Origin: a virus
DNA: 49,481 nt
Virus record (IMG/VR): IMGVR_UViG_3300032093_008396
Coordinates: 1-49,481 of that record
Reading direction: 5' to 3' (one strand)
Position numbers and translations under genes: made by a program. Positions 26,776-48,234 of this stretch are shown in pieces. Within the stretch, counting starts at the first letter, position 1; the number at the start of each line of letters is the position of its first letter. Below the pieces are notes generated by a model, which was given only the letters and a program-made list of their open reading frames with translations, did no database searches and had not been told where the DNA came from.

Positions 26776-29700
26776 ATGGCATCATCAAATAAGGTTTTTG
26801 TTTCTCCTGGTGTGTACACATCGGAAAGAGACTTAACGTTTGTGGCTCAAAGTGTGGGTGTAACCACTTTAGGTGTTGTAGGTGAAACACTACAAGGACC
26901 GGCTTTTGAACCAATCTTTATAACAAATTTTGACGAGTTCCAAACTTATTTTGGAGGAACAAGTCCTGAAAAATTTGTTAATACACAAATACCAAAATAC
27001 GAATTGGCTTATATCTCTAAATCTTACCTATCACAATCAAACCAACTATTTGTAACGAGAGTTTTAGGTTTATCAGGATATGATGCAGGTCCGTCATGGT
27101 CTATCGTAACCATTGGTAATGTTGACCCATCCACAATACAAGTAACAGGAACAACTGGTCCTGTTGCAGTAACATTCACAGGAACAACTGGTGGAACTGT
27201 AACATACACATCAGTCCCATCGTCAATTAACGTAAATGGAAATTTTTATAACTCTTACACTGAGTTTAATGGAGCTACTTCTTCAATTGCTGAAGATTTA
27301 ACAACTTATTTAACAAATCAAATGTATTTGTTTGCTACAAGTTCCTCAACATCAGGTAGTACTGCAATTTTGTGGGGTTCATCAAGTGCATCGACTTTGA
27401 CAAGTACTACAGGTGTTACTTCATTGAATACTATTACAGGTTCTACCGAAATGTTCGGAGTTCCAAATGTAAACCAAGCTTCTAATAATTTTTCAGCATC
27501 AACTAATGACCCATGGTATTATGGATTATTTAATTACTACCAAGGCTCAAATGATGTAAATACATATTTCGGACAAAGTATGGGTGCTGCACTTTCAGGT
27601 ATTTCTACAACACCAACAACGGGTGTATATTCAGGAACTGTTGCATTCTTTACTACATCTTATTCAGGAGCACCATATACAACTTATGATGATTTGGTTG
27701 TTGCAACATTAAGGTCAAGAGGTATTTCAACATATACTTCAACTAATGCTGGACCATTCTATGAAGTTACGGGAACTACAGATGTTGCTATGATTTGTAC
27801 AGGTGCATACTCGGCGGTAACTAAAAATCCATATTCAACATTCCAAATTTCGGGTGTTACTTATGATGGTGATAACTTTAGTTTTGAAACATCGATGTTA
27901 AGTACAAACAAAAACTATTTAAGAAATGTATTTGGAGCATCTAACTTTGGTAAAGCAAGAAATGAAGTTCCTTTATTTGTTGAAGAGACTTATTCGGCAT
28001 TATTACAAACAGGTTATAGAGCAGGTCAAATTAGAGGTTTATATTGTGACTTAGTTGAATTGCCAGGTGCAAGGTCAGGTAATGCTGATAGTATCGGTTT
28101 CTACTTAGAACAATACCAAACACCTGAGACACCTTTCTTAGTTTCTGAACTTCGTGGTAGTAAAGTTTTCAAATTATTTAAATTTGTTCTAATCTCTGAT
28201 GGTAACTCTGCTAATACATACGTAAAATTATCTATTGGTAATATTTCATTTAATAATGGAACATTCGATGTATTTGTAAGAGATTATTTTGACAATGACC
28301 AAAATGTTAGAGTATTAGAAAGTTTTACGAACTGTTCATTAGACCCAACTAATAATAACTACGTAGCAAATAAAATTGGTACGTCAAACGGTGAATACCA
28401 AGTAAAATCTAAATATGTAATGTTAGAGATGAGTGATGAAGCTCCGATTGATGCATTACCTTGTGGTTTTGAAGGATATGTAATGAGAGAATATGCAAAC
28501 GCAACACCACCATTTGTTCCTTACAAAACTAAATACTATTCAGCGGGTGAAACAATTTACAACCCACCTTTTGGTTCGACAAGTGGTGGAGACAACCCTG
28601 TTATATCAAGTGGGGAAAATCCAAGAAGAGCTTACTTAGGTATTTCTAATATTAGTGGTTTTGATTACGACTTCTTCCAATATAAAGGAAAACAATTACC
28701 AAACAGTTTGGCTACAGACACTACGGGACCAGCTTGGGGTTACTTAACTAAAGGGTTCCACATGGATAGTGGTGCAACAGTTGTGACTATCGCTAACTCA
28801 TATGCAACTTCAGGTCAATCGGCATTTGAAGTGGGTGTTGGGTCATTTAATTCTGAACCAGTTGATACCGATAATCCTTATTACAGATTAAACACACGTA
28901 AGTATACAGTAATGGCTTACGGAGGTTTTGATGGTTGGGACATTTATAGAGAATCAAGAACTAACACTGATACATTCGCATTAGGTCAAACAGGATTTAA
29001 ATACGGGGCAGCAAGTTCAGTAACTTACCCTACCGCATCAGGATGGGGAGCATTCAAACAAATTTCAGGACCTAACCAAGAAACTTGGGCGAATACTGAC
29101 TACTACGCTTACAAATGGGGACAATCAACATTTGCAAATCCTGAATCTACAAACATCAACGTGTTTGCAACACCGGGTATTGATTATGTTAATAACTCAA
29201 ACTTAGTGGAAGAATCAATTGATATGATTGAAACAGATAGAGCAGATTCAATCTACATTACTACAACCCCTGACTTCAATATGTTCTTACCATCTTATCA
29301 AGATGTAACGGAAGGTTTGATTTACCCTCAGGAGGCGGTAGATAATTTAGAGAACACAGGTATCGACTCTAACTATACTGCAACATATTACCCTTGGATT
29401 TTGACAAGAGATACTGTTAATAACACTCAAATCTATATTCCTGCAACTTCTGAGGTTGTAAGAAACTTAGCATTGACTGATAACATCGCATTCCCTTGGT
29501 TCGCATCAGCGGGTTACACAAGAGGTTTAGTAAACGCAATTAGAGCAAGACGTAAGTTAACACAAGACGATAGAGATACTTTATATAAAGGTAGAATCAA
29601 CCCAATCGCTACTTTCTCTGATGTGGGCACTGTAATTTGGGGTAACAAAACTCTTCAAATCAGAGAATCTGCACTTGACAGAATCAACGTAAGAAGATTG

Positions 29701-29988
29701 TTACTACAAGCTCGTAAATTGATTTCAGCAGTAGCCGTAAGATTATTGTTCGAACAAAACGATAATAAAGTAAGACAAGACTTCTTGGATTCAGTTAACC
29801 CAATCTTAGACCAAATTAGAAGAGATAGAGGTTTGATTGACTTTAGAGTTCAAGTATCTAACACACCTGAAGATTTAGATTCAAATACATTAACAGGTAA
29901 AATCTTCTTGAAACCAACAAGAGCGTTAGAATACATTGACATCGAGTTTGTCATCACACCAACAGGAGCGTCTTTCGACGATATCTAA
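26776..29988 (+). CDS. Tail sheath protein, gp18-like, unusually long
   Basis: 1070 aa, against about 660 in T4. The N-terminal signature (VSPGVYTSERDLTF, 9-22, then an EPIFITNFDEFQTYFGG block) and the C-terminal sheath domain (RESALDRINVRRLLLQARK near 961, then LFEQND, IRRDRGLIDFRV and EYIDIEFVI at the end) are typical and intact. The middle (about 120-850) is greatly expanded and rich in S, T, G and N, so it carries extra surface domains. Sheath subunits contract to drive the tube through the host envelope. It is the first gene of the main tail unit, with a TATTTATA element 41 nt upstream and a hairpin 15 nt after the stop. Confidence 0.95.
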   Translation: MASSNKVFVSPGVYTSERDLTFVAQSVGVTTLGVVGETLQGPAFEPIFITNFDEFQTYFGGTSPEKFVNTQIPKYELAYISKSYLSQSNQLFVTRVLGLSGYDAGPSWSIVTIGNVDPSTIQVTGTTGPVAVTFTGTTGGTVTYTSVPSSINVNGNFYNSYTEFNGATSSIAEDLTTYLTNQMYLFATSSSTSGSTAILWGSSSASTLTSTTGVTSLNTITGSTEMFGVPNVNQASNNFSASTNDPWYYGLFNYYQGSNDVNTYFGQSMGAALSGISTTPTTGVYSGTVAFFTTSYSGAPYTTYDDLVVATLRSRGISTYTSTNAGPFYEVTGTTDVAMICTGAYSAVTKNPYSTFQISGVTYDGDNFSFETSMLSTNKNYLRNVFGASNFGKARNEVPLFVEETYSALLQTGYRAGQIRGLYCDLVELPGARSGNADSIGFYLEQYQTPETPFLVSELRGSKVFKLFKFVLISDGNSANTYVKLSIGNISFNNGTFDVFVRDYFDNDQNVRVLESFTNCSLDPTNNNYVANKIGTSNGEYQVKSKYVMLEMSDEAPIDALPCGFEGYVMREYANATPPFVPYKTKYYSAGETIYNPPFGSTSGGDNPVISSGENPRRAYLGISNISGFDYDFFQYKGKQLPNSLATDTTGPAWGYLTKGFHMDSGATVVTIANSYATSGQSAFEVGVGSFNSEPVDTDNPYYRLNTRKYTVMAYGGFDGWDIYRESRTNTDTFALGQTGFKYGAASSVTYPTASGWGAFKQISGPNQETWANTDYYAYKWGQSTFANPESTNINVFATPGIDYVNNSNLVEESIDMIETDRADSIYITTTPDFNMFLPSYQDVTEGLIYPQEAVDNLENTGIDSNYTATYYPWILTRDTVNNTQIYIPATSEVVRNLALTDNIAFPWFASAGYTRGLVNAIRARRKLTQDDRDTLYKGRINPIATFSDVGTVIWGNKTLQIRESALDRINVRRLLLQARKLISAVAVRLLFEQNDNKVRQDFLDSVNPILDQIRRDRGLIDFRVQVSNTPEDLDSNTLTGKIFLKPTRALEYIDIEFVITPTGASFDDI

Positions 29989-31162: not shown

Positions 31163-31651
31163 ATGGCTGATTTGTTAATGAAAATGCCCTTTCAATATGA
31201 ACCTAAAAGAAAAAATAGGTTTATTATAACGTTCCCCTCTTCTTTGGGGATTAACTCTTGGTATGTTGAAAGTTCTTCAAGACCAAAGGTGGAGATTAAT
31301 CCAGTAGCTATCCCGTTTTTGAACACTGAAACTTATGTTGCAGGTAATTTTAAATGGGGAACAATAGACGTTACATTCCGTGACCCAATTGGTCCTTCAG
31401 CATCACAAGCTCTTATGGAGTGGGTTCGTTTACACGCTGAATCAGTAACAGGTCGTATGGGTTATGCTGCAGGTTACAAAAAAGACGTTGACCTTGAAAT
31501 GTTAGACCCAACAGGTGTGGCAGTTGAAAAATGGATTTTACAAGGATGTTTTTTAACAAATGTTGACTTCGACACATTAGGATATAGTGAAGATGGTTTG
31601 ATTACTGTAAAAGCAACATTAAGACCTGATAGATGTATCTTGGTATACTAA
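31163..31651 (+). CDS. Tail tube protein, gp19-like
   Basis: 162 aa, almost exactly the T4 gp19 length (163). The pattern is typical: start MADLLMKMPFQYEPKRKNRFII, the WYVESSSRPKVEINPV strand pair, NFKWGTIDVTFRDPIG in the middle, WILQGCFLTNVDFDTLGYSED and the closing TVKATLRPDRCIL. Tube subunits stack as hexamers inside the sheath to form the DNA channel. It has its own upstream element and is followed by a strong terminator, so it is a single-gene unit, as expected for a protein needed in large amounts. Confidence 0.93.
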   Translation: MADLLMKMPFQYEPKRKNRFIITFPSSLGINSWYVESSSRPKVEINPVAIPFLNTETYVAGNFKWGTIDVTFRDPIGPSASQALMEWVRLHAESVTGRMGYAAGYKKDVDLEMLDPTGVAVEKWILQGCFLTNVDFDTLGYSEDGLITVKATLRPDRCILVY

Positions 31652-31744: not shown

Positions 31745-32503
31745 ATGGACCAAAGCACACAATACGGACAAATGGATTTCAACCTTCCACATGATATGGT
31801 AAAATTACCAAGTGGTGGACATACTTATAGACCAAAAAAAGAATCTTTAAAAGTGGGGTATCTTACTGCTACGGATGAAAATATTTTAATGTCTCAAAAT
31901 ACACCAAAAGACGGGTTGATTATGACTCTACTTAAAAATAAAATTTATGAGCCAGGTTTTGATGTGGGTCAATTATTAGAAGTTGATGTCCAAGCTATAT
32001 TAATATTTTTAAGAAATACTGCCTTCGGACCTGAATATGATTATCTTATAACTGACCCAAAAACGGACAATAAATTTGAAGTCAAACTTATTGTGGATGA
32101 GGTAAATTACATAAAACCTAAACATGAAATGGGTACAGATGGTTTGTTTAGCGTTGAGTTACCAAAATCAAAAAATAAAGTTAAATGTAAATTACTAAGT
32201 ATAAAAGAAAGTAATGAAATTGAATCGATTAGTAATAATTACCCTTCAGGAATGATTGCACCAATAGTTACAAAAAAATTAGAGAGTCAGATAGTAGAAC
32301 TAAACGGGTCAACGGATAAGGGTGAGATTGCAAAAATGATTTCAAACATGCCAATTGCCGACTCCAAATTTTTAAGAAGATTTTTATCTGAGTGTGAACC
32401 ACAACTTGATTTAATAAAAACAGTTACAGCCCCGTCAGGAGAAAAAGTCAACGTAATGGTTGGTTTTGGGGTTGAATTTTTTCGCCCTTTCTTCACAATA
32501 TAA
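31745..32503 (+). CDS. Baseplate/tail assembly chaperone, T4 gp26-like
   Basis: 252 aa. It matches the T4_baseplate (gp26) pattern: LPSGGHTY (37-44 region), then GYLTATDENILMSQNTPKDG, a 'TA.DE.ILxS' block followed by a conserved helix, and EVDVQAILIFLRNTAFGPEY. These proteins resemble tail assembly chaperones and act in hub or tape-measure assembly. It directly precedes a 40-aa out-of-frame ORF and the tape-measure gene, the classical chaperone position. It ends at TAA 32501-32503 with a TTTTTT run at 32477-32482 shortly before the stop. Confidence 0.7.
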   Translation: MDQSTQYGQMDFNLPHDMVKLPSGGHTYRPKKESLKVGYLTATDENILMSQNTPKDGLIMTLLKNKIYEPGFDVGQLLEVDVQAILIFLRNTAFGPEYDYLITDPKTDNKFEVKLIVDEVNYIKPKHEMGTDGLFSVELPKSKNKVKCKLLSIKESNEIESISNNYPSGMIAPIVTKKLESQIVELNGSTDKGEIAKMISNMPIADSKFLRRFLSECEPQLDLIKTVTAPSGEKVNVMVGFGVEFFRPFFTI

Positions 32504-34500: not shown

Positions 34501-37500
34501 ATGGAGAGTCCACTATCATTTAATTCGAGCGAAAATTTTAGAAAAAAACTATTGGTGAGAAACCTTCCACCATACAAAGTAGATAGTGCTTTTTCAAATG
34601 ACGGTAAACCAGGTTCTTCTGAATTTAATATTAATGACCTAACACCCATTGACTCCCCAAGTGTTGAACAAATAGGTAACCAACAAGAACAAATTCTTTT
34701 ACCTATAAATCAGTATGGTCCACAAACAAGTACTGGAGAATATGGAGACATCGTACCAATCAATATTAATTTAAATTATAAATCAAATGAAGGTGAATAT
34801 GGATATCCTGACACTATAGAAAGTGATTTAGAGATTATTGGTAACAATACTGAAAAACAAATTATAATAAAAAATGTTTATAGACCTGAAAATGGTTTAT
34901 CAGACTTCGGCTCAACTGCTTGGTACATTAATAATGATAAAGTTATTAATACTGTTGGTGAAGGTGAATATACGGTACAAGATACGATTGGTAGTAATTT
35001 AGAAACTACCGCAAATGCCGACCGACCTATTCTTATTACAAATAATCAATACGGACCTGAAAACCCTTCTAATGTCGAAGTTTCGATTAATAATAATTTA
35101 CAAACTAATGCTAACGAAGGTGAGTATGGTTTTCCTGATACTGTAGATAGTCCATTAGAAATAAAAGGAGAAACGGATAGACCTGCATTAATTGCTATAA
35201 ATCAATATGGTCCTGAAAATTTACCAACAACCGAAGTATCAATAAATAATAACCTACAAACCAACTCAAATGAAGGTGAATATGGGTTTCCTGATACTGT
35301 AGATAGTGAATTACAAATTGTAGGTGAAGACGTTAGAAAACCTAATTTCTTACAAAATCAATGGGGCCCTGAACAGGGACAAAGTGAAACTGAAGTTGAA
35401 CCGTACAGAAAACAAAAAAATTTAGTAATACCACAAGGTAATTACGACGTTACTGATTCGGATGGCTCTCTTTTAGAACTTGTTGGAGGAATTAAAGAAA
35501 CTGAAGCATACCTATCAAACAGATATGCTACGGGTGATGGTGAATATGACCCGACAGATTTCAAAACCCTTCAACAAGAGGCGTTACAGTTACCATATGC
35601 TAATTCAGATAATACGTTTATATTTTTACCATCTACCTACACACCATATAGTATATTATTAAATGATGACCCATCGGGTTCTGATGGTAGTTTATCACAA
35701 GACTCTGACTTAGCAAATATTGGCGCAAAACAATTAAATAAAGAATTTAAACATAGAGTTGCGCTTGAGTTATTTCAACAAACATTAGGACAAGTAAATA
35801 TATTCAATTCTAATGTTAATCCCGATACTGGAGAAATATCTGCTCAACCAAATACCGACCCTTTCGATGCTATTGGTTTATTAACAGGTAATATTCCTAT
35901 TGTATCGAGAGTTTATAATATTACAACTCCTGATTTTCTATTTGGTCAAGGTATTAACTTTGCCGCTAAATTAGGTGGTCTTTATTCACCCTATTCTTAT
36001 ATTCCTGGTGAGTATTTTGATTATCCTGAACGAATAGGTAATGGACCTTTTGAAAACCCATTATCATTAATAGGTGGGGCTTTAGGTTCTTTATTTAGTG
36101 CTCTACAACCCGCAAATCAATCTTCATCTGAATTATTTGTTGAATTTACATCAGTACCAACACGTAAATTACTTTATGACCAATTAAAATATAATCAGTA
36201 CAGACCCGATTATAAAATAGGTAATAATTTACTCGCACCTAAAGGTGTGTTCTACCTTGGTGATAGAAAAAATCATTTGACAGAATTAATGTCCCCCGCA
36301 CCCGAACTACCATATGCAAAAGATGGTAAAACCTCATCAATGGGACCTGTGCTTTCTTACTCTAATATGGGTAAGTTATATGAAGGAGAACAATTAAATG
36401 AAACACAATTTGGTTTAAATAGTAGAAACTTATATAGTGCGGGAGCTAATAAAGATGGTGTTAAATGGATTGGTGCTGGTATCTTCGGTGGCGTAACTTG
36501 GATTGGTAGTAAGAGTCCGAAAGAGGATAACAAACCACTACAAGGTAAATTACAAGGTAGAGGTGGAGAGCAATTCGAAGACAATAGTGAATTTACTTTT
36601 GGTAATTTAGTAGGTTTTGATTCAACTAAGTCTACTAATTTAGATTTCACACCAGGTTCTTTATTAGATGTAACACAAAAACTTGTAGATGCAGGGCAAC
36701 GAAGTTCACAACCTTTAGAACATGTTGGAACCGCAATTAACCAAGTATCAAAAGTATTTAACGACGGATATCAAGAATTAACAAAAGGTTCAAGAGTTGT
36801 AAGATATACAACCCAAAACTCTAAACCTGATAGTAGCGCAACACCAACAGGTCTTGAGTATTGTAGAGTATTCACAAAAGACAGACCATACTACACTTAT
36901 GACGAGTTACAAAAAACAGATGGTAATATAAGAGGTTATACTAATTCAGTATTAGACAACACTTACAATTTAAATATTGCACCAACTGACGGATATAGTA
37001 TAAAAGATGGTAAAGTAAAAAAATACATGCTATCTTTAGAAAACTTGGCATGGAGAACATCAAATAAAAAGGGTTTTACTTATGATGATTTACCGGCTTG
37101 TGAAAAGGGACCAAATGGAGGTAGAATTATGTGGTTCCCACCATATGATTTAAGTTTTGATGAAAGTGTTAGTACACAATGGACTGACAACAATTTTTTA
37201 GGTAGAACTGAACCGATTTATACTTACACTAACACATCAAGAAAGGGTAACGTTTCTTTTAAAATTATTGTTGACCATCCATCAATCCTTAATGTATTAG
37301 TTGATAAAGAATTAGAAAATGTTGGAAACAATGGAGAAATAACACAAATTATTGATTCATTCTTTGCGGGATGTACTAAGTACGATTTATGGGACTTAGT
37401 TAGTAAATTCCCAATGTTTACTCCTAATGATATTTTTGAAACTCAAATATTAACTACGGAAGATGTTGTCACTGTAGTACAAGAAAACAGTTATTCTATA

Positions 37501-40500
37501 CCTGAACAAGAAATTGATATTGATAGTGAAATAGAACCTACACCTACACCATCACCATGTGTTGTTTTAAAATACCAAATTGGTGTTACCACCGATTTAA
37601 CGTATACGGGTTGTTCAGGAGATGTAATAACACTAACAGGTTTAGCACCAAACGCGAGTGGAGAAATATGTGCAATAAGAAGTAATGCTTATAATTACTC
37701 AACACCTGACCCTACAAATACTATAACACCAACAGGACAAAATTGTGTTCAAACAACACCTGGACCAACTCCAGGACCAACACCTACACCAACACCTACA
37801 GCAACCGAACCACCATTAAATATTCAATTTCCGGATATTGGTTTTTATTTTGATAACAACTTTCCTGACGGAACAGGAAATAGATACGGTACCACTGTTA
37901 CTCAAGATTTTGAACATTGGTACGATTTATATATTGCTTCAAAAAACAATTATTTAAATGATGGAAAACCTGATACCTATAGTGCTGCTTTGAATAAAAT
38001 ATTTTCATACGATGATAGTACTAAAGCAGATAAAACTAGTTTCATTTTAGGACTTGATGATAGTAATGCGGCTAAAATAGAATATCTAAGGAATTATGTA
38101 GATACAAGAAAAGAGGAAATAGGTATTTTTTTCGATTATATAACTAAAGAATTTAATGAAGCCAAAAGTTTCATACCAAAACTAGGTAAAATATTAGATG
38201 ACGGGGGAACCGTTGAATTTGATTTAGAGGCTAGTGCATCCGCTGTTACCGACCCTGAATATAATCTAAATTTATCTAAAAGAAGAAATGATGCAGTTTT
38301 GAAGTGGATATTAAAACAAAAGTCACCAAATCAAACAACTTTACAAAATTATAACCAACAAGGTAAATTGAAAATTAATCAAACGTCCGTTGGGGAAAGT
38401 CCCACACTGGAAGACAAACCATATAGATTTGTTGTATGTTCTAAAGGTTTTAAATCATCGAAACAAGAAGGTGTTGTGTCAATAAACGCAATGGCTTGTC
38501 GTAGAACTAAAATTAGTAATATCAAACCTATATATAACCAATCACAAAACGAAAACCAATCACAAAATTCAACTGTTCCATTAACTAATGGTGGTGATTC
38601 GTCACAAACTGGTCAAGAATTATCAGGTCAAGATTTCTTAGTGATTGCACCGAATCCACAACCCGGTGTTGATGGTGGTGTACCACAACCAAATGACACA
38701 ACTAACCCTTTTGTTACCCAAGACCCAATTTCACAACCTTATACAAATACACCAAATACGAGACAACAAGACGTACAAACACAAACACTACAAAAAAGAA
38801 AAGATTTAACAAAAAGATTAGCAAGAAAACTTTTAACTGAATGTAATTATTTTGAATACATCAAACAAAATGAACCAATGGTTTATGATGGTATTAAATC
38901 AAAAATAAAATACTTCCAACCTGCATTCCATTCAATAACGCCAGAAGGACTTAATGCTAGATTAGTGTTCTTACAACAATGTATGAGACCTGGAGACACG
39001 ATACCTACTGTATCTCAGTCAGATAGCGGTCAACAAACATTATTATTTAATGATGCGACGAACAGTGCTTTTGGTGCACCTCCAGTTTGTATTTTAAGAA
39101 TAGGTGATTTTTTCCATACAAAAATTGTTATTGACCAAATAACTTTTAAATATGATGATGGTAGATTTGATTTAAATCCTGAAGGTATCGGAGTTCAACC
39201 AATGATTGCAACTGTGAATGTATCATTCAATTTTATAGGTGCTCATGGTTTGGCAGGTCCTGTCGCTCAATTACAAAATGCATTATCATTTAACTATTAT
39301 GCTAATACTGAAATGTATGACGAAAGAGCCGAATCAACAGAACAACTTAATTTAGAAGTTTATGATGCTCAAATACTTTCACAAGTAAAAGATGACTTAA
39401 ATGTTGTCAATACGGAAGCACCAAGACCGGTAGTTAATGACGGAGGAGTTACGATTGGGACAATAATAACTAATACAATTGATTTAAACACATCTATTAC
39501 TTCAGGTACCATCAAGTATAAAGATGTAATGAGTGGGTTGGCAAATTTAACAAAAGAATATACTGAAAAAACACTTTCTACTTTAGAAAAAATAAATGAA
39601 AATTATTTGATTGGTGGACTACAGGTGTTCACAAAAGATAGAAAATATATAGAAGGTAATTTTAATTATTTAGGTGGAAATATAACAAATACTGCAAACA
39701 TATTTGGGTACTCTTATGACGTTCAAACTAAAATTGAAAGTATTGCAACTAAAGCGAAGGAAGATGTTGATAATGGAGACGTTTGTCCACTTCTTTCAGG
39801 ATTAGCAAATCAAAACTTATCAAACGTTCAAGTGAGAAAAGTTAAAAAAGAATTAAAAAATCAAATAGATGCTAAAAAAGAACAAATGTTGAATGATTTA
39901 GAAAATTATGCAAATGAAATTAATAATATACAATACCCATTAATAAGTTCAATTGACAAAATAAATTATGTTTCAGATGCCCATGATGGGTTCATAAAGA
40001 AAAATAATTCAGTAGTTATCTATAATCTTTCAGGAACAACACAGATAACACAACCAACCCTATCTGGTGTGAACAATACATTACAAGAACTTGTTGAAGA
40101 TTCTTATTTGGTGAAAAATAACATAAATGATTTTTATCAAAAGTTACAAGATTTCAGTTTAATACCAACAGGTGAGGATGTATACAGAGACGATTTTACT
40201 CAAAATACTTATATATCCAATCAAAACTTTTTACCACAAGAAACTGTATTCTTTATTTTATTTGGTAAAGACATAATAGATGATTCTGATAAGTTTGCAA
40301 TAGATTTGATAGATAAAGCAATACCAAATTTAAATCAAGATGATGAAATTGCTTGGTTGAAATTCTTAGATGAAAATCTAAATCAACCGAATACAGGACT
40401 TAGAGATTCATACAAAGCTTCTAAAACTGTTGTCGATAAAAAAATTGCAGATTTCAGAACAACGTATTTTAATTCTACATTTACAAATTATAAACCCTAT

Positions 40501-40638
40501 AATTTAGATAAAGAAAGAATAATGTGGTATGAATCCCAAGTAACAGCACAAGCACCTTATACTGATAATTTATCTGCAATTTACTCGTCAACAAATGCGA
40601 CGTGGGACAAATTTAATTTACAAAAAAGTTTTCAATAA
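34501..40638 (+). CDS. Giant baseplate/virion protein with N-terminal repeats and embedded OmpA-like domain
   Basis: 2045 aa. Residues 70-330 hold five imperfect repeats of 52-57 aa (core YGPE, then INNNLQTN, EGEYGFPDTVDS). Residues about 780-1000 resemble a baseplate/LysM-adjacent region (YNLNIAPTDGYSIKDGKVKKYM, WFPPYDLSFDESV). Pro-Thr linkers lie near 1013-1020 and 1084-1103 around a cysteine module. Residues about 1105-1330 look like an OmpA-type peptidoglycan-binding domain: GFYFDNNFP for strand 1, TVEFDLEASASAV, and NLSKRRNDAVLKWIL (about 1255-1269). The rest is helical and beta-rich. It overlaps the next gene by one base. Probably part of the baseplate wedge or hub; the exact T4 counterpart is unknown. 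Confidence 0.7.
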   Translation: MESPLSFNSSENFRKKLLVRNLPPYKVDSAFSNDGKPGSSEFNINDLTPIDSPSVEQIGNQQEQILLPINQYGPQTSTGEYGDIVPININLNYKSNEGEYGYPDTIESDLEIIGNNTEKQIIIKNVYRPENGLSDFGSTAWYINNDKVINTVGEGEYTVQDTIGSNLETTANADRPILITNNQYGPENPSNVEVSINNNLQTNANEGEYGFPDTVDSPLEIKGETDRPALIAINQYGPENLPTTEVSINNNLQTNSNEGEYGFPDTVDSELQIVGEDVRKPNFLQNQWGPEQGQSETEVEPYRKQKNLVIPQGNYDVTDSDGSLLELVGGIKETEAYLSNRYATGDGEYDPTDFKTLQQEALQLPYANSDNTFIFLPSTYTPYSILLNDDPSGSDGSLSQDSDLANIGAKQLNKEFKHRVALELFQQTLGQVNIFNSNVNPDTGEISAQPNTDPFDAIGLLTGNIPIVSRVYNITTPDFLFGQGINFAAKLGGLYSPYSYIPGEYFDYPERIGNGPFENPLSLIGGALGSLFSALQPANQSSSELFVEFTSVPTRKLLYDQLKYNQYRPDYKIGNNLLAPKGVFYLGDRKNHLTELMSPAPELPYAKDGKTSSMGPVLSYSNMGKLYEGEQLNETQFGLNSRNLYSAGANKDGVKWIGAGIFGGVTWIGSKSPKEDNKPLQGKLQGRGGEQFEDNSEFTFGNLVGFDSTKSTNLDFTPGSLLDVTQKLVDAGQRSSQPLEHVGTAINQVSKVFNDGYQELTKGSRVVRYTTQNSKPDSSATPTGLEYCRVFTKDRPYYTYDELQKTDGNIRGYTNSVLDNTYNLNIAPTDGYSIKDGKVKKYMLSLENLAWRTSNKKGFTYDDLPACEKGPNGGRIMWFPPYDLSFDESVSTQWTDNNFLGRTEPIYTYTNTSRKGNVSFKIIVDHPSILNVLVDKELENVGNNGEITQIIDSFFAGCTKYDLWDLVSKFPMFTPNDIFETQILTTEDVVTVVQENSYSIPEQEIDIDSEIEPTPTPSPCVVLKYQIGVTTDLTYTGCSGDVITLTGLAPNASGEICAIRSNAYNYSTPDPTNTITPTGQNCVQTTPGPTPGPTPTPTPTATEPPLNIQFPDIGFYFDNNFPDGTGNRYGTTVTQDFEHWYDLYIASKNNYLNDGKPDTYSAALNKIFSYDDSTKADKTSFILGLDDSNAAKIEYLRNYVDTRKEEIGIFFDYITKEFNEAKSFIPKLGKILDDGGTVEFDLEASASAVTDPEYNLNLSKRRNDAVLKWILKQKSPNQTTLQNYNQQGKLKINQTSVGESPTLEDKPYRFVVCSKGFKSSKQEGVVSINAMACRRTKISNIKPIYNQSQNENQSQNSTVPLTNGGDSSQTGQELSGQDFLVIAPNPQPGVDGGVPQPNDTTNPFVTQDPISQPYTNTPNTRQQDVQTQTLQKRKDLTKRLARKLLTECNYFEYIKQNEPMVYDGIKSKIKYFQPAFHSITPEGLNARLVFLQQCMRPGDTIPTVSQSDSGQQTLLFNDATNSAFGAPPVCILRIGDFFHTKIVIDQITFKYDDGRFDLNPEGIGVQPMIATVNVSFNFIGAHGLAGPVAQLQNALSFNYYANTEMYDERAESTEQLNLEVYDAQILSQVKDDLNVVNTEAPRPVVNDGGVTIGTIITNTIDLNTSITSGTIKYKDVMSGLANLTKEYTEKTLSTLEKINENYLIGGLQVFTKDRKYIEGNFNYLGGNITNTANIFGYSYDVQTKIESIATKAKEDVDNGDVCPLLSGLANQNLSNVQVRKVKKELKNQIDAKKEQMLNDLENYANEINNIQYPLISSIDKINYVSDAHDGFIKKNNSVVIYNLSGTTQITQPTLSGVNNTLQELVEDSYLVKNNINDFYQKLQDFSLIPTGEDVYRDDFTQNTYISNQNFLPQETVFFILFGKDIIDDSDKFAIDLIDKAIPNLNQDDEIAWLKFLDENLNQPNTGLRDSYKASKTVVDKKIADFRTTYFNSTFTNYKPYNLDKERIMWYESQVTAQAPYTDNLSAIYSSTNATWDKFNLQKSFQ
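34708..35500 (+). repeat. Five tandem coding repeats of about 156-171 bp
   Basis: Repeat starts (codons for N-Q-Y-G-P or a variant) fall at 34708, 34873, 35044, 35200 and 35356, so unit lengths are 165, 171, 156 and 156 bp. Units 3 and 4 are most alike and both carry INNNLQTN and NEGEYGFPDTVDS. All units stay in frame, so this is a protein repeat, not a CRISPR or non-coding array. It could bind sugars or be a stalk; copy number may vary among relatives. Confidence 0.85.
37747..37812 (+). repeat. Pro-Thr/Gly-coding low-complexity linker
   Basis: Codons read TPGPTPGPTPTPTPTATEPP, a flexible linker placed directly before the OmpA-like domain. A shorter tract (PTPTPSP) lies at about 37538-37558. 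They flank a 60-aa module with paired cysteines. Confidence 0.8.
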
Positions 40639-40955
40639 TGGATTACTACAATAGATATAAAGATTTTTTGATTAACGGACAACAAACTGTTGTTCCGTTT
40701 TTATCTATACCTGGTAGAGTTACAGACCAGCAATATTTGTATAGACAAGGAAGAAGTAGGTTAGATAAAATAAGTTTTGAAAAATATGGAACACCATATT
40801 TTGGTTGGTTAATATTGGCAGCAAATTCTTTATATGGTGGACTTGAACAAAACATACCTGATGGTACAATATTAATTATTCCTTTTCCATTAACTGCGGC
40901 ATTACAAGATTATAAAGCTGCTTTAGATACTCACATATTCTATTATGGCCGTTAG
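40638..40955 (+). CDS. gp53/LysM-like baseplate wedge protein (tail protein X-like)
   Basis: 105 aa. The C-terminal two thirds read DKISFEKYGTPYFGWLILAAN (about 42-62) then IPDGTILIIPFP: a LysM-type fold in which D.IS...YG...W.I..AN and IP.G..L.IP are the signature. Such domains occur in T4 gp53 and in Mu-type tail protein X, where they hold the baseplate hub and wedge together and bind peptidoglycan-like sugar polymers in other contexts. It shares one base with the stop of the 2045-aa gene and overlaps the next gene by 11 nt, so the three are translated as a unit. Confidence 0.75.
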   Translation: MDYYNRYKDFLINGQQTVVPFLSIPGRVTDQQYLYRQGRSRLDKISFEKYGTPYFGWLILAANSLYGGLEQNIPDGTILIIPFPLTAALQDYKAALDTHIFYYGR

Positions 40956-43900
40956 ATTAAAACAAAATAAAAAAATCTTTATTGAGACCGATTATGATAA
41001 CATTGTTGTTGTTAACCCAAACGAAGTTTTTTCTCCCGACGGTACAAAACAAGAACGCCTTGTTGACCATGAAGATTTAGTTTATTATGCCAATTTAGAA
41101 ACATTTATAATCCCAAGAACTAAGTTAGCTATTGGTGATAATTTTGACTCACCGGTTATTAATACAACAAGTATCGCAACAATGTTTGCGGGTGACGACG
41201 CGTTGAAAATTAATTTCATGAAACCAAAAGGTAAGACACAATTTGATACAAGTTGGTCAGACCAATTGACGGGAGAAGGCACAAGAACTTTCAACGGAGC
41301 TAATCAATCAAGTGAAAGAGTTGTGAACTTTGAAGGTAGACAATCTTTTAAACGTTCCGTTTCCAACCCTGAAGATACACAATTATTAGGTATAAAAGAA
41401 ATAAGAGTTAATATTAAGGGAACGGGTGTTCCTGAAGTAAATATACAATTAGTCGATATACAAGGAAGGTCTTTATTTGAACAAGGAGAAAATTCATTAT
41501 ATTCTGCATTTTTTAATTTTCCTTATCCATTATTTTATTTGACGTTGAAAGGTTATTATGGTAAAGCTGTCAAATATAGATTATCATTAATGTCATTCAA
41601 CGCAAGTTTTGATGCGGACACAGGTAATTATAATATTTCACTCAAACTAATTGGTAAATTCACTGCACTTCTTTTTGATACGCCTTTATCTTACGCGGTA
41701 AACGCACCAAAAATGTATAATACCCAAATTACCGTAACACAAGCAAGCACAGGTAATAAGAACGTCTTCAATACATATAAGGGTAGACAAAAATTAGAAG
41801 AGGTTTACAAAACCTATATGAGAAAAGGTTTAATACCTGACAACTTTCCGATGCTCTCGATAGAGGATTTTGTTTTGAGAGTGGAAAACTTTGAATCTAA
41901 ATTGAAAAAAAATTTAGAAACTCAGGCAGATTTTACTAAGTTAAACGATTTGAAGTTGTTTGCGGATACTTTGATTAATTTAAGAAAAAAAGTTTATGAT
42001 TATTCTATTAATAATTTTCTTGATAGAACAAGTTTTTATGTTGTCGGTGAAGAAATATATTACCCTTTCAAAAAAGAAGTTGCGTTACAGTCTAGAGAAG
42101 ATTACAAAACATTTATAGACAAAAATATAATTGATTATACAAAACAATTGAAAGACAATGCAACTTTTGGTGAAAAAGGAGAAACAAAAGACCAAATTAC
42201 TATTTTAACTAAAAATAAAAAAGATGTAATAAAAAAATTAGATTTTAATGCTTGGCAAAACAATAGGGCCGATGTGTTAAATACATACTTATCAAGGTAT
42301 AGTAGAAATTTAGAAGCAGAAAATCCTGATGAATATAAAAAATTTATTGAAAACGAAGCAAGAAATGCTCAACTTACAACACAAGTAAGAGATGAAAAAG
42401 GCCAAATCATAAATGACACGCCTGATTATTTTGTTTTTGGGAACAAAATTGTTGCTGACGGCATATACGTCAAAAATTCTTATTTAGATAAGATTGACGA
42501 AATGCAAAAAAGTTTAGAGGCAAAACAAAAAGTTATTGAGGATACGTTAACAAAATATTATGCAAGTTTACAATTAAAAAACCCAAGTGAAGGTGGATTA
42601 GGATTTAAACCAACGATTAGAAACATTTTTGCGATAATAATTGCAGGTGCCGATGCTTTTTATAGATTGATGGAAGATAACCATGAAGAAGCATGGAATG
42701 TAAGAACTGATAAGGACAGGTTATTAGCGGTAATACCAGCAGAAAAAAACTTTTCAGTTGATGCTGTGAAAAGTATACAAAAGTCAAGTACGGAATTAAA
42801 TGATGATAATGTTGTATATCCTTGGCCTTTATATTTTACATTAGAAAAACAAGAAAATGGTAGTGATTTATATACAATACAATATCCTGGAGACGCGAAG
42901 TACATAAGACAGACAAAGGCTTATGATTATAGAGTTTGGCCCGAAGTTGGTTTTGTTGAGGCATACATAAAGGCTTCATTAGAAAAAGAAAAACCAACTT
43001 CTAATTACTCATATGACAACCCAACAGATGTAACTAAATATGTTTCTTGTAATGCTTTAGAGTTCCCATTCAAAACAGCACCATATCAAGATTTGAATGC
43101 TATTAAAACATTTTATGAAATATTTGAAAGAAGTTATATTAGTTCTCACTATGGAAACTTACCACTTGATTTATCACAAAAAAAACAGATAGATAAATTT
43201 TATGGAGATATTGAAAGTTCTAATATAGGTTTAGTTGCTCCTGAGGATATTACAATCAATCAAAATTTAAAGAATTTAAAATTCAATTCATTAGACAAAT
43301 TGATTGATTATATGAAAACAATATCAAACAATGGTAAAGGACAAAGCTGGCAAACGTACATACGAGATATATTCAACACAGAATATATTAAAAACTTACT
43401 ACAAAACGTCAATGAAATTTATTCAATCGACACATTATCCGATAGGTCTGTGAAAGTTTCTGCTGACCTACCATTGGCAACCAATATGAAAGAATTTTTA
43501 GAGGATAGTGGGACATCCAAAAAAAATACGTTAGATACGTATCCATTTACTGATTTAACATGGTTACAAGAAAATATGGCAAACGGAAGTAATATAGGTG
43601 CGTTTGAAGATTATAATAATACCACAAGAAGTTACATTTATTTAGATGATAAAAAGACTATCGCTAGAATTAATGAAACTGAAAAATACCCTAATTTAAA
43701 ATTATTCACAAATAACACGGTATTTCAAAGTAACACACAAGCATATTTAACAGAAGTAGGGTCAACTGAAAAAATCAATTCAAGATTATCTCTTAAAAAC
43801 TTTTTTGAAACAAGACAAGACAAAGATTTATATTTAACTGAATCATATATTAACTATGGAACAAGTTATAGTGGAAATATCGGAACTTTTATTCAAACAA

Positions 43901-46900
43901 CATCATTATTAAACACACCATATTTTGTTAATGCTCTCATCGATGGGGTGACAAAACAAAAAAATAATCAAGAAAACCCATTTGTAGGTTTAGGTTATTT
44001 GTATTTGAACTCATTACCACTGATAACAACCAAAGAAAAAATAAAAGACATAACAGATAATGTATTAACGGATTTAGATTATTTAGCTGCAACATTTAAT
44101 AAATTTTCAGCAATACATCAAGTACCTTATGCTTGGGTATTAAAGTACGGTTCAATATGGCATAGATATAAAAAATACATAGAAGATAATGTAGATATAT
44201 TAGACGATTGTTGGAAAAATTTTGATTTTAATGTTGCTTATGCGCCAACAACAGGTGATAGTACAACCACATACACAATATTAGACTATAGTGGTAATCC
44301 TCAAAATATCACACTACAAGGTGCTCAATTTTATCAAAATCCACAAAACTCATTCATATTAAGAAATACGTTCGATGTTGGGTTTTACCCTAAAGTTGTA
44401 AATTCATTAGAATATTATTTGAATGAAGAAGATTTATTAACGGGTTATACAACAAGTGATTTTGCGGATGTATATAATAAAGGTTTGAAAATTGGTTTCA
44501 ATAGTGAGTCTACCACAATGTATGGTACAGGATTTGACCCAAATAATGGATTCAGAGAGTTCTTAAAGAAAAACTATTTTACATATAGATTAATTGAAAA
44601 CACTGCGGTTCAGTCGCAACCAGACACAATAAGACTATACCCATCAATGGGAGGTATACCATTCGACCAATCAATTTTTGAATGTTTCAATCAAACGAAT
44701 AAAATTACCGAAGAAATATATAACAACTCCTCAGTTTTCAACGGTACTGTTAGGTCATTATGGGGTATTTCTAATTTTGGATATTATAACAACGATTTAA
44801 TTAAAAAACCATTACCGACCGAATATCTTAAAGTTATTAAAAATAATGCACCACTTCAAAACGATTTTAATATTGTTAGTAATGATTTAACTTACTCAAA
44901 AATAGACGAAATATTCAATTTGTTTGATGTTGATTTATTGGATAAAATGGAAGAAAAGTTTTTAACTTTCTGTAATTTTAAACCATTGGCGAGTGAATTA
45001 AAATTGAATGAGGAAAATATTACACCTAATTATATAGACACTAACGGTTTAACAAATTCAGACGTTAAATTATTACGATATCAGATTAAAAACATTTTTG
45101 ATTTTGATAGTAGTTTATTTAATAGTGTGAATCAAAACGAAGATGGAATAGAATTAGGAAAATTACAAATTTCAAATTTATATACATCATTAAATAAATT
45201 TTTAAATTTTGATTGCGTATTAAAAATTGCAAACCCAACAAACTTTGATAGAAAATTATTTGATTCATTTAGTACTATTTCAAACTTACAAGTACAAGAC
45301 AAGTATAAATTTGAACCTTATGTGAAAGGTACGTTACCCGGTGACGGAACAGCAACTACTTTATTACAAAGTATAACTCAAAACCCTTCTGCTTGGGATG
45401 CGTTCAGAAAATATTTAGGATATACTACAATACCTGGGTTAGAGTTTCAAACACAAGTACAACCGGTGTTACCATCCGTACCTATCGCACAAAATAATCC
45501 ACCTACACCATATACACCACCCGTTGCGGGACAAAATTATAGAACGTTCCAAGATTTATGTAGTGGTACGTATTTTAATATAATTGACCCAAATGATAAC
45601 ACAAGCACAACATCATTTAATTACTATAATAATGACGTATGGTTCTTAGAGGTTGTTGATAACACATCACAAACAAAAAAATTCTGTGCAAGAAAGGTAC
45701 CTGATAGTGCGACAACAACCACATATAATTTGGAGAATGATGACAATTACCCACAGACAAATGCGGTAGGAACAACACCGGCAAGTTACTGTATGTCATT
45801 TTATCAAACACAATTAAATTGCCAACAATCACCTTTACTAGACCCAATACAATTACAATTTATTGGAGATTCGGCAACAATATTACCTGACGTACCTGGT
45901 GATGGTGATTATATTAACATTGAAAAAACAGACGGTACATATCAGGTGTTTAGAATTATAGGTGACCCTAATTTTGATGCTAACAAGATTGAAAATATAA
46001 GATTTTATCCACCGGGAACCGACCCAATAAACCCACCAATCGGTACTAGTATATATCGTGAAGGGTTTGGGGGTGTTGACACAAACTACGCGAGAGTATT
46101 TAGAGTTGATAATAATGTAGGTGGTAATTATGTTATGACGGTAGAATACACCCCTAATTCCCCAAATGAAATTATATTATCTGCGAATGTTTCAACCCTA
46201 CCTGGTTTACAAAACACAATACCACAACAAACAACAGTACCCCAACAGGCACAACCATTACAAAATACACAAAAATCTTTCTTAACTGATTTCTTCATTG
46301 ATAATTCAATTGCATTTAATGAACAAAATATTATTACTTTATATCCATTAGTAAGACTTTATGGTGAACAAAAAAGACTTGACCCTACTTATGACAAAAC
46401 TAAATTCACGACATATATAAATAATTTTTTAGAGGATAGAAGAAGTTTACAGGACAAAATGGTTACAGAAACTTTTTCCAACCTAAATAAAATTTTAAAT
46501 AATATTGATGTAACGGTTGATTTACCTACTACTGCGCTTAACGGTGACACTACAAAATTAGCTTTATATAATACATTGAAAGGATTTAACGATAAATGGA
46601 TTGCTGGCTCTGATTTAAAAAACAATACTTTGTTTGAGGACTTTTTATTTATGGATAGGGCAAATAGTGATTTAGGTAATTCATTTGTATTAGACGTACA
46701 AAAAGTTGTAAATGCGTTAGACCTTAAGTCAAAACAAGACCAAAGTTTAATGAGTGTAATAAGTAGAATTTTGGAAGAAAATTATTTTATTTTTATGGCA
46801 ATGCCTGCTTATATTAATTTTTATGGTATACAAAGAGCGGTAAAAGATGGTCAACCATTGAAAGATGTTGAAATTGGTAATTCATTATTTGGTACGTATT

Positions 46901-48234
46901 TAGAAGTTGACTATACAAACTCAAGTCCCAAATTTTTGTGTTTATATGTTGGAAACCCTTCAGAATACCCTAAACCAAAAGAGAACACTTTCAATCGTTT
47001 TGGTGATGATAGTTTTGACTTGAGAATGTCGGATAACCCACTTAGAGTTTCGGACCCAAAAACAAACTATTCGTTGAGTAATCGTGTTGTTGGATTTGCG
47101 GTTGATTTTGGTATAAGAAATCAAAACATATTCAAAAGCTTGAGTCTAGATATGTCAGAAATGAAAAACACATCAGAGTCATTCAAAGTTTATGCTGACA
47201 TGGGTAGTTCTGTTGCTGGTGATAAAGTGGCACAACAATCCGCATCGCTTTATAGTATATATAAATCTAGGTCATATAGTTGTGGTGTAAGTAGTATGGG
47301 AAATGTCATGATACAACCTACAATGTATTTTGTACTAAGACACGTCCCTATGTTTTATGGTCCATATTGGATAACTGAAGTGAACCATAATATTAATACT
47401 GGCGGATTTAATACCGAATTTAAAGGTACTCGCATACCAAAATATGCATTACCAAAAGTGGATAATTTATTGGCGTCTGTAAATCAAATAGTAATAACTA
47501 AGATTAAAGAGTTGGCAGCAAAGGATAAAGAAAAACCAACAACTGAAAATGAACCAGTCACACAAAATCCAGTACCTGTTAATTTAGCTAGCCCTGAAAA
47601 TAATTGTGAAACAATTACACAATATCCTTCAGTACCATTTGAAACACTTGTACAGAGCACGTTCACAGATACAGATATCATACCTGTAATAAAACAAGAA
47701 ACAAGTGACACATCTTTACGAGCTTTAATTTATGGATTGACTAAAGGAGTTGTTCCAGGAACCACAATGAATAACGGTATTACAAATTGCATCAATAACA
47801 ACCCATTCGGAATTAATACAATAATAAATTATAAAGGTAATCTTCCTAGTTTGATTTTAAAACAATCTTGTATAAATATTGCAAATACACCAACCCCTTT
47901 AGTTAAGTTTAATAATTTAACAGAGTCTATAAAGTTCATGATTTCATACATGACTCAGGTTATAAATTTAGTACCACAGTTAAAAACATTAAATCCTGAC
48001 GCCGACGAAAACAAACAATATGGAAAGGCTTTATTTCAGTTAGTATATGCTTCTTGGTTAACTCAAAAAGCATTTGGTAACCCAACTGCGGTACCACCAC
48101 AACCCCCATTAAACGCTCAACAGATAAAAGATACTACTATACAAGATTTTACAAATCAAAATAAATTAGACACATATAACAATTGGGTTGAAGAATTTGC
48201 CCGAAGTTATAAGTATTTTAAACAAAACCCATAG
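40945..48234 (+). CDS. Giant 2429-aa baseplate protein with possible C-terminal peptidoglycan hydrolase-like domain
   Basis: 2429 aa, the largest gene here at 7.3 kb. An N-terminal region (about 149-270) with VNIKGTGVPEVNIQLVDIQGR, PYPLFYLTLKGYYGKAVKYRL and FNASFDADTGNYNISLKLIG is a beta-rich baseplate module. Most of residues 300-1500 is helical and charged. Residues 1511-1632 form a Pro/Asn-rich, cysteine-containing stretch like those in two other virion proteins here. Around 2090-2190, YGPYWITEVNHNINTGGFNTEFKGTR fits a hub-type beta barrel. The last 200 residues contain NNPFGINT (about 2284-2291) and FNNLTESIKFMISYM, resembling glucosaminidase domains, but the usual E-S-G catalytic segment is not obvious. 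Probably a fused hub/wedge protein. Confidence 0.65.
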   Translation: MAVRLKQNKKIFIETDYDNIVVVNPNEVFSPDGTKQERLVDHEDLVYYANLETFIIPRTKLAIGDNFDSPVINTTSIATMFAGDDALKINFMKPKGKTQFDTSWSDQLTGEGTRTFNGANQSSERVVNFEGRQSFKRSVSNPEDTQLLGIKEIRVNIKGTGVPEVNIQLVDIQGRSLFEQGENSLYSAFFNFPYPLFYLTLKGYYGKAVKYRLSLMSFNASFDADTGNYNISLKLIGKFTALLFDTPLSYAVNAPKMYNTQITVTQASTGNKNVFNTYKGRQKLEEVYKTYMRKGLIPDNFPMLSIEDFVLRVENFESKLKKNLETQADFTKLNDLKLFADTLINLRKKVYDYSINNFLDRTSFYVVGEEIYYPFKKEVALQSREDYKTFIDKNIIDYTKQLKDNATFGEKGETKDQITILTKNKKDVIKKLDFNAWQNNRADVLNTYLSRYSRNLEAENPDEYKKFIENEARNAQLTTQVRDEKGQIINDTPDYFVFGNKIVADGIYVKNSYLDKIDEMQKSLEAKQKVIEDTLTKYYASLQLKNPSEGGLGFKPTIRNIFAIIIAGADAFYRLMEDNHEEAWNVRTDKDRLLAVIPAEKNFSVDAVKSIQKSSTELNDDNVVYPWPLYFTLEKQENGSDLYTIQYPGDAKYIRQTKAYDYRVWPEVGFVEAYIKASLEKEKPTSNYSYDNPTDVTKYVSCNALEFPFKTAPYQDLNAIKTFYEIFERSYISSHYGNLPLDLSQKKQIDKFYGDIESSNIGLVAPEDITINQNLKNLKFNSLDKLIDYMKTISNNGKGQSWQTYIRDIFNTEYIKNLLQNVNEIYSIDTLSDRSVKVSADLPLATNMKEFLEDSGTSKKNTLDTYPFTDLTWLQENMANGSNIGAFEDYNNTTRSYIYLDDKKTIARINETEKYPNLKLFTNNTVFQSNTQAYLTEVGSTEKINSRLSLKNFFETRQDKDLYLTESYINYGTSYSGNIGTFIQTTSLLNTPYFVNALIDGVTKQKNNQENPFVGLGYLYLNSLPLITTKEKIKDITDNVLTDLDYLAATFNKFSAIHQVPYAWVLKYGSIWHRYKKYIEDNVDILDDCWKNFDFNVAYAPTTGDSTTTYTILDYSGNPQNITLQGAQFYQNPQNSFILRNTFDVGFYPKVVNSLEYYLNEEDLLTGYTTSDFADVYNKGLKIGFNSESTTMYGTGFDPNNGFREFLKKNYFTYRLIENTAVQSQPDTIRLYPSMGGIPFDQSIFECFNQTNKITEEIYNNSSVFNGTVRSLWGISNFGYYNNDLIKKPLPTEYLKVIKNNAPLQNDFNIVSNDLTYSKIDEIFNLFDVDLLDKMEEKFLTFCNFKPLASELKLNEENITPNYIDTNGLTNSDVKLLRYQIKNIFDFDSSLFNSVNQNEDGIELGKLQISNLYTSLNKFLNFDCVLKIANPTNFDRKLFDSFSTISNLQVQDKYKFEPYVKGTLPGDGTATTLLQSITQNPSAWDAFRKYLGYTTIPGLEFQTQVQPVLPSVPIAQNNPPTPYTPPVAGQNYRTFQDLCSGTYFNIIDPNDNTSTTSFNYYNNDVWFLEVVDNTSQTKKFCARKVPDSATTTTYNLENDDNYPQTNAVGTTPASYCMSFYQTQLNCQQSPLLDPIQLQFIGDSATILPDVPGDGDYINIEKTDGTYQVFRIIGDPNFDANKIENIRFYPPGTDPINPPIGTSIYREGFGGVDTNYARVFRVDNNVGGNYVMTVEYTPNSPNEIILSANVSTLPGLQNTIPQQTTVPQQAQPLQNTQKSFLTDFFIDNSIAFNEQNIITLYPLVRLYGEQKRLDPTYDKTKFTTYINNFLEDRRSLQDKMVTETFSNLNKILNNIDVTVDLPTTALNGDTTKLALYNTLKGFNDKWIAGSDLKNNTLFEDFLFMDRANSDLGNSFVLDVQKVVNALDLKSKQDQSLMSVISRILEENYFIFMAMPAYINFYGIQRAVKDGQPLKDVEIGNSLFGTYLEVDYTNSSPKFLCLYVGNPSEYPKPKENTFNRFGDDSFDLRMSDNPLRVSDPKTNYSLSNRVVGFAVDFGIRNQNIFKSLSLDMSEMKNTSESFKVYADMGSSVAGDKVAQQSASLYSIYKSRSYSCGVSSMGNVMIQPTMYFVLRHVPMFYGPYWITEVNHNINTGGFNTEFKGTRIPKYALPKVDNLLASVNQIVITKIKELAAKDKEKPTTENEPVTQNPVPVNLASPENNCETITQYPSVPFETLVQSTFTDTDIIPVIKQETSDTSLRALIYGLTKGVVPGTTMNNGITNCINNNPFGINTIINYKGNLPSLILKQSCINIANTPTPLVKFNNLTESIKFMISYMTQVINLVPQLKTLNPDADENKQYGKALFQLVYASWLTQKAFGNPTAVPPQPPLNAQQIKDTTIQDFTNQNKLDTYNNWVEEFARSYKYFKQNP

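Follow-up and report, generated by a model that had tools for sequence, protein, structure and literature searches.

A large baseplate protein encoded by an uncultured virus (IMG/VR record IMGVR_UViG_3300032093_008396) was analysed in a stretch of 49,481 nucleotides, positions 1 to 49,481 of that record, which is referred to here as the window. The protein consists of 2045 amino acids, and the presence of an OmpA-fold domain within it is confirmed. With moderate confidence, this domain is an insert in the tube initiator of a contractile tail. The best explanation is that the protein is a tube-initiator baseplate protein of an uncultured T4-like contractile phage, the OmpA domain of which provides a PorE-type peptidoglycan grip at the tip of the tube; a probability of about 0.55 is assigned to this reading. 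The relevant open reading frame (ORF) and the parts of its product are listed below.

34501..40638, plus strand: tube-initiator-like baseplate protein with an OmpA-fold insert (ATG start, 2045 amino acids; full-length relatives in uncultured virus contigs)
37006..37272, plus strand: putative first half of the tube-fold domain, amino acids 836-924 (structure alignment of the flanks; hhalign with counterparts)
37540..37755, plus strand: small all-beta domain, amino acids 1014-1085, between Pro/Thr linkers (predicted local distance difference test score, pLDDT, of about 90 there; found in part of the family)
37822..38538, plus strand: OmpA-fold domain, amino acids 1108-1346 (family profile, Pfam in relatives, AlphaFold2, VIA-align)
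38998..39246, plus strand: putative second half of the tube-fold domain, amino acids 1500-1582 (modelled flanks; A2 profile)

Evidence for the OmpA fold

The OmpA pattern was noticed in an initial annotation and consists of FYFDNNFP at amino acids 1115-1122 and NLSKRRNDAVLKWIL at amino acids 1257-1271. By itself, the window sequence is no more than suggestive of OmpA: it scores 13.5-16.1 bits against the Pfam family OmpA (PF00691), which has a curated cut-off of 27.2, with E values of 0.095 for the whole protein and 0.015 for the domain alone. Searches of Pfam, PHROGs and the PDB with the window protein by itself were weak or misleading, with antibody and haemagglutinin chains outranking OmpA, and family profiles were therefore adopted. 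PF00691 is matched at E<=0.1 by 30 of 42 relatives (best E 4.1e-5). The family profile A1, which comprises 42 rows, retrieves 42 PDB sequences at E<=1, mostly of the OmpA/Pal/OprF/YfiB/MotB types (best E 1.4e-7), and matches a bacterial OmpA profile with a probability of 97.0 and an E value of 1.1e-10. The AlphaFold2 model of the domain has a pLDDT of 94.1 and shows the expected order beta-alpha-beta-alpha-beta-beta. In structure comparisons using VIA-align, the top rows are OmpA-like, with a Z score of 9.9 to 9uu2 (108 residues, root mean square deviation 2.3) and of 9.8 to Acinetobacter baumannii Pal and to OmpA with diaminopimelate (DAP); the DAP-site Asp of A. baumannii OmpA is Asp271. Foldseek gave weaker results, ranking PorE (6TOP) first at 2.8e-3 and no PDB row at E<=0.001.

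The annotated domain is thus borne out by profile, model and structure comparison. Its proposed extent, about amino acids 1105-1330, is too short at the end, since the last strand (ACRRTKI) lies past amino acid 1330 and the domain ends at about amino acid 1346. Pro-Thr linkers had also been described; Pro/Thr-rich stretches are indeed present on either side of the small all-beta domain just upstream of the OmpA domain, which is followed by a low-complexity stretch. The small domain is covered by 17 of 50 aligned rows, and the relative L067 (3268 amino acids) carries several further tandem copies of this kind. Within the OmpA domain, the Cys residues at amino acids 1313 and 1333 are invariant in all 42 phage rows and have no Cys counterpart at those columns in four aligned PorE-like bacterial rows; they may form a disulphide or a metal site. 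In L068, a 17-amino-acid stretch holding LSKRR is present as an in-frame tandem copy, which is missing from its near-copy L034.

Position of the domain within the baseplate protein

The baseplate setting proposed in the initial annotation agrees with the gene order, which is sheath, tube, gp26-like gene, the gene for the 2045-amino-acid protein, gp53-like gene and large ORF. The position of the gene between tape-measure-like and gp53/hub genes fits a tube initiator. The embedding can also be sharpened, as the domain appears to sit inside a tube-initiator fold. The model of amino acids 790-1640 is poor overall (pLDDT 63), with values of roughly 50-75 in the flanks, and the OmpA part is kept in it. 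In VIA-align, both flanks (model residues 46-792) align to baseplate chains as one contiguous domain, with about 150 residues aligned over this span. The Z score is 8.3 for 6j0n_b of PVC (root mean square deviation 4.5, 148 aligned residues), 8.2 for 6rao_G of AFP, 7.9 for 5iv5_BE of T4 and 7.7 for 8v3w_T of diffocin, and other baseplate chains were found as well. We take 6j0n_b, 6rao_G and 5iv5_BE to be Pvc7, Afp7 and T4 gp48, respectively. The low-confidence model suggests a tube-like beta fold of the flanks, with Z scores of 7.9-8.3 to the PVC, AFP and T4 chains over 143-148 residues.

No cultured relative was found by tblastn (see below), and counterparts were then located through gene order and hidden Markov models in Flavobacterium phage immuto, Microcystis phage Mel-JY01 and the uncultured phage LR756508. 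The gene order of immuto is the same: tape-measure-like gene, tube-initiator counterpart, gp53-like gene and large ORF. In hhalign, an alignment of the C-termini of the three counterparts (A5) matches the upstream flank with a probability of 95.7 (E 9.9e-9), then, in the same order, the downstream flank, though weakly (E 8e-4), and gives no match to the OmpA part. The mean column identity is 64% in the upstream flank and 67% in the downstream flank (A2 profile), compared with 28% in the OmpA domain.

The occupancy of the insertion site was surveyed in 228 ORFs with both flanks, which contain 157 distinct intervening regions. The A1 profile matches 111 of these. Among the remaining 46, 38 fall into groups with an hhalign probability of >80 to A1 or bacterial OmpA, seven match weakly (six in the L080 group, plus L184) and one, L221, does not match; the flanks, used as negative controls, scored <1%. 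L221 has 119 amino acids of low complexity where other relatives carry the OmpA domain, and other phages with the same protein core carry a different domain of the GYASPQG type.

The diaminopimelate pocket

The following residues of the domain correspond to ligand contacts of bacterial OmpA domains.

37849..37854, plus strand: Phe1117-Asp1118 in strand 1, matched by motif, with no computed structural alignment, to PorE Phe541/Asp542
38239..38241, plus strand: Ser1247, at the position of the canonical pocket Asp (residue counts over 111 rows)
38260..38286, plus strand: kept pocket residues Tyr1254, Asn1255, Leu1258, Ser1259 and Arg1262 (equivalents in TagL and PorE)

The TagL paper (PMC8253398) names as DAP contacts an Asp (Asp486 in TagL), followed by Asn (+8), Leu/Ile (+11) and Arg (+15), and the PorE paper names contacts with the same spacing (PMC7192894). 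The crystal structure of PorE contains a bound stem peptide; Asp576 contacts the DAP amine and is one of three side chains that hydrogen-bond the ligand, Phe541/Asp542 are further ligand contacts and several other contacts are made via the main chain (PMC7192894). At the same spacings, the window protein has Ser1247, Asn1255, Leu1258 and Arg1262. A check of the DAP-site residues had been proposed in the initial annotation, which named their absence beforehand as an argument against the assignment: Asn and Arg are kept, whereas the pocket Asp, one of the three side-chain contacts, is replaced by Ser and is almost never Asp in the family. Over 111 rows, this column contains Ser in 92, Asn in 13, Asp in two, Tyr and Leu in one each and a gap in two; the Asp is genuine in L150 and results from an alignment shift in L049. 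The other pocket columns hold Asn in 106 rows, Leu in 104 and Arg in 109, the last being all ungapped rows; the exceptions to Asn and Arg are mostly gaps, and the strand-1 Phe (Phe1117 column) is nearly invariant in A1.

In a bacterial control from the phylum of genome G001, Asp is found at the pocket position in 34 of 36 rows; these are the distinct rows among 53 hits after hits not matching the motif expression were dropped, and the single row counted as G reads GSAD and thus has Asp by eye. A larger set gave 64 of 67, but it adds loci picked for similarity to A1 or L272, is therefore non-random and misses most PorE-like rows. Although the mean column identity of the phage domain is low, the pocket Arg, Asn, Leu and Ser rank 2, 11, 12 and 17 of 224 columns (random-rank test for the four columns, p 5e-5). 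A Fisher value computed alongside counts related rows as independent and serves for description only. One of three side-chain contacts is consistently changed and the remainder is kept, which could mean that the ligand preference has shifted or that binding is weaker; since several PorE contacts are made via the main chain, the Asp-to-Ser change would not remove those. The domain resembles a peptidoglycan anchor in most respects tested but lacks one of the residues that define canonical DAP binding. For this reason, it was classified as a divergent PorE-like OmpA-fold domain and as a candidate rather than a proven peptidoglycan binder. In L132, L136 and L141, the OmpA-like domain persists and the LSxxR motif is lost, making them natural pocket-less variants.

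Kinship with PorE-like bacterial domains

A search of 118 genomes from the same phylum with A1 gave four long ORFs in three genomes as the best bacterial matches. A profile of the OmpA domains from these ORFs, A7, aligns with A1 over 186 columns with a probability of 99.7 (E 2.1e-25), including an extra segment between strand 1 and helix 1. Judged by eye, the genes begin with signal-like stretches, and TPR and/or PD40 repeats precede the OmpA domain; among three proteins scanned, TPR was found in two and PD40 in two, and one of the genes adjoins PorP/SprF. As judged from sequence, they have the PorE-like architecture of the TPR-PD40-OmpA proteins of Bacteroidota that are associated with the type IX secretion system (T9SS). 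PorE-like genes are present in six of 296 genomes. In all five PorE-like domains read (out of seven rows; L345 and L346 were left out), Ser occupies the position of the pocket Asp.

Phylogenetic trees point to these as bacterial sister domains. A tree joined 42 phage and five PorE-like rows at 100/99, and a tree on a shorter stretch, from which L062 and L049 were left out for lack of the motif, joined 40 phage and five PorE-like rows at 100/98; in the latter tree, no branch separates the phage rows from all others. In an earlier tree, from which PorE-like rows were absent, a branch supported at 95/83 set the 42 phage domains apart. A common phage origin that takes in the GYASPQG lineage was not rejected (p-AU 0.152). 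The initial annotation had considered that the domain was taken from the host. The bacterial link holds insofar as the closest bacterial domains found are PorE-like and the trees join the window clade with them; a recent capture from the host is one of the possible routes, which differ in the direction and number of transfers. A canonical bacterial OmpA domain matched 25 phage records, many of which are, by annotation, host proteins on contigs filed as phage; no tail protein could be demonstrated among the annotated records.

Proposed mechanism and competing explanations

The 2045-amino-acid protein would take the role of T4 gp48, Afp7/Pvc7 or Mu gp43 and would bear a PorE-like OmpA domain of the Ser-for-Asp kind. 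A ring of six copies would surround the tube immediately behind the hub and, when the sheath contracts, would be carried into the periplasm along with the tube. There, the OmpA domains would bind peptidoglycan stem peptides via the kept Arg, Asn and hydrophobic pocket, thereby keeping the tip of the tube fixed to the cell wall while the DNA is delivered. The hexamer, the travel with the tube, the binding and the gripping, the last already suggested in the initial annotation, are what we infer from related systems: T4 gp48 and gp54 enter the periplasm together with the tube (PMC7600766), the equivalent ring of XM1 is believed to remain on the tube (PMC10457771), and the Mu tube initiator gp43 bears a LysM peptidoglycan module, which is regarded as a structural component (PMC11915804). 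By analogy with T4, XM1 and Mu, the wall would be contacted by six OmpA domains located directly behind the hub. On the best reading, the grip would complement or replace the LysM module that other tube initiators carry.

Several observations weigh against this proposal. The flank model is poor, and Z scores of about 8 are near the level of unrelated matches, though the rows mutually agree. A5 aligns to the downstream flank in order but weakly (hhalign probability 24, E 8e-4). The pocket Asp, one of the ligand-bonding side chains of PorE, is Ser, and L062, L132, L136, L140 and L141 still have a related domain although its pocket has decayed, as would be expected of a structural role. In such a role, the OmpA fold would be a scaffold in the tube initiator that touches wedge or hub proteins, and its pocket would bind a neighbouring segment or nothing. 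This is an unlikely but serious competitor: besides the retention of the domain in L132, L136 and L141 despite lost pocket residues, it would account for the family-wide loss of the canonical Asp and for the invariant Cys pair that the aligned PorE-like rows lack. However, the domain changes fast while its pocket, in the majority of rows, ranks with the most conserved parts, and PorE-like bacterial proteins share this pocket.

A changed ligand is a still less probable explanation. The Ser/Asn pocket might accommodate another state of the stem peptide, e.g., modified or cross-linked DAP, or another carboxylate of the host envelope. Of 111 rows, 105 have Ser or Asn in place of the residue that contacts the DAP amine in PorE, no ungapped row has lost the carboxylate-binding Arg and the five PorE-like domains read have Ser as well; yet the main-chain contacts and Asn remain, so that ordinary DAP could still bind. 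Very improbable, finally, is a chance resemblance in which the motif does not belong to an OmpA domain. The single-sequence Pfam score lies under the cut-off, but profile, model and structure comparison all agree and rule this explanation out, unless the model is wrong.

Beyond the peptidoglycan grip itself, a broader proposal can be made tentatively, with the odds somewhat against it: a widespread uncultured phage lineage may carry on its tube-tip ring an anchor common to T9SS-associated PorE-like proteins, the Ser-type pocket may be a distinct recognition mode, and the tube may dock on the wall as a secretion machine of the host does.

Gene neighbourhood and relatives

The tail genes around the ORF are the following.

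26776-29988, plus strand: tail sheath, upstream of the 2045-amino-acid ORF
31163-31651, plus strand: gp19-like tube gene, upstream of the ORF
31745-32503, plus strand: gp26-like baseplate gene, upstream of the ORF
40638..40955, plus strand: gp53-like baseplate wedge protein, 105 amino acids (T4 gp53 PDB profile match; phrog_7145)
40945..48234, plus strand: 2429-amino-acid protein, probable hub/spike by position

The sole PDB profile match of the 105-amino-acid protein, T4 gp53, is weak (E 0.15), and 16 of 19 of its relatives match the baseplate wedge family phrog_7145. Pfam and PHROGs scans of the window gave no family match for the 2429-amino-acid ORF; at its place, immuto has a 938-amino-acid protein with a VanY domain. 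The sheath is unusually long (1070 amino acids), and known sheaths match its C-terminal third only. In the N-terminal part of the 2045-amino-acid protein (window 34690-35540, amino acids about 64-346), several degenerate repeats can be seen by eye (NQYGPEN ... NEGEYGFPDTVDS); this region varies in length, reaching 306 amino acids in relatives compared with the 50-amino-acid block of the window.

Relatives of the protein are encoded at at least 76 loci in uncultured virus contigs (one scan). With the whole protein, the conserved flank, L072, L079 or L080 as query, tblastn found no relative in 50,697 phage records; the same search with a tail sheath as control matched 2588 phage records, showing that it works. 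Among the wider family are very large phage contigs of 226-380 kb (L183, L239 and L234). Given these contigs and the lack of tblastn matches among phage records, the tail module is common to a large uncultured contractile-phage lineage. Further relatives come from contigs catalogued with a Prochlorococcus single cell (L079), a rumen Paludibacteraceae metagenome-assembled genome (L080) and a Holophagaceae metagenome-assembled genome (L078); these do not fix the host range. Freshwater Bacteroidetes myophages are the subject of PMC9723584.

Comparison with known systems

The PorE-like OmpA domains of Bacteroidota, represented structurally by the C-terminal domain of PorE (6TOP), have the same fold, the extra segment and the Ser-for-Asp exchange of the phage domain. 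P. gingivalis PorE itself, in contrast, keeps Asp576 (PMC7192894), and the whole protein has TPR and PD40 repeats, neither of which was found by Pfam in the phage protein; 6TOP is absent from the PDB hits of the A7 profile at E<=0.1. Tube initiators such as T4 gp48, Afp7, Pvc7 and Mu gp43 likewise have the tube-like domain that the phage flanks are predicted to form, in a gene order as in immuto; compared with these, the phage protein adds the OmpA-fold insert and about 790 N-terminal residues. In the tube initiators of Mu (gp43), Milano, A-1(L) and R2 pyocin, a presumed peptidoglycan-binding LysM module is located on the same ring (PMC11915804). The phage protein has an OmpA fold in place of LysM, and its gp53-like protein is encoded by a separate neighbouring gene. 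Pfam gave no LysM match in the 2045-amino-acid chain, although LysM-like folds can escape sequence searches. TagL/TssL of the type VI secretion system also combine an OmpA domain with a contractile machine and share the pocket positions (PMC8253398); however, TagL anchors the membrane complex of the firing cell itself, whereas the phage domain would ride on the injected device. The open-access literature searched yielded no report of a phage tube initiator with an OmpA domain, and the available excerpts of PMC10013915, PMC8705779 and PMC4632598 contain nothing on it.

LysM peptidoglycan modules are already known in tube initiators. If true, an OmpA-fold module with a conserved pocket in the same ring would be an independent solution and would suggest selection for wall contact by the tube tip. 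The Ser-for-Asp form, which is common to bacterial PorE-like proteins, points to a candidate new binding mode in the OmpA family.

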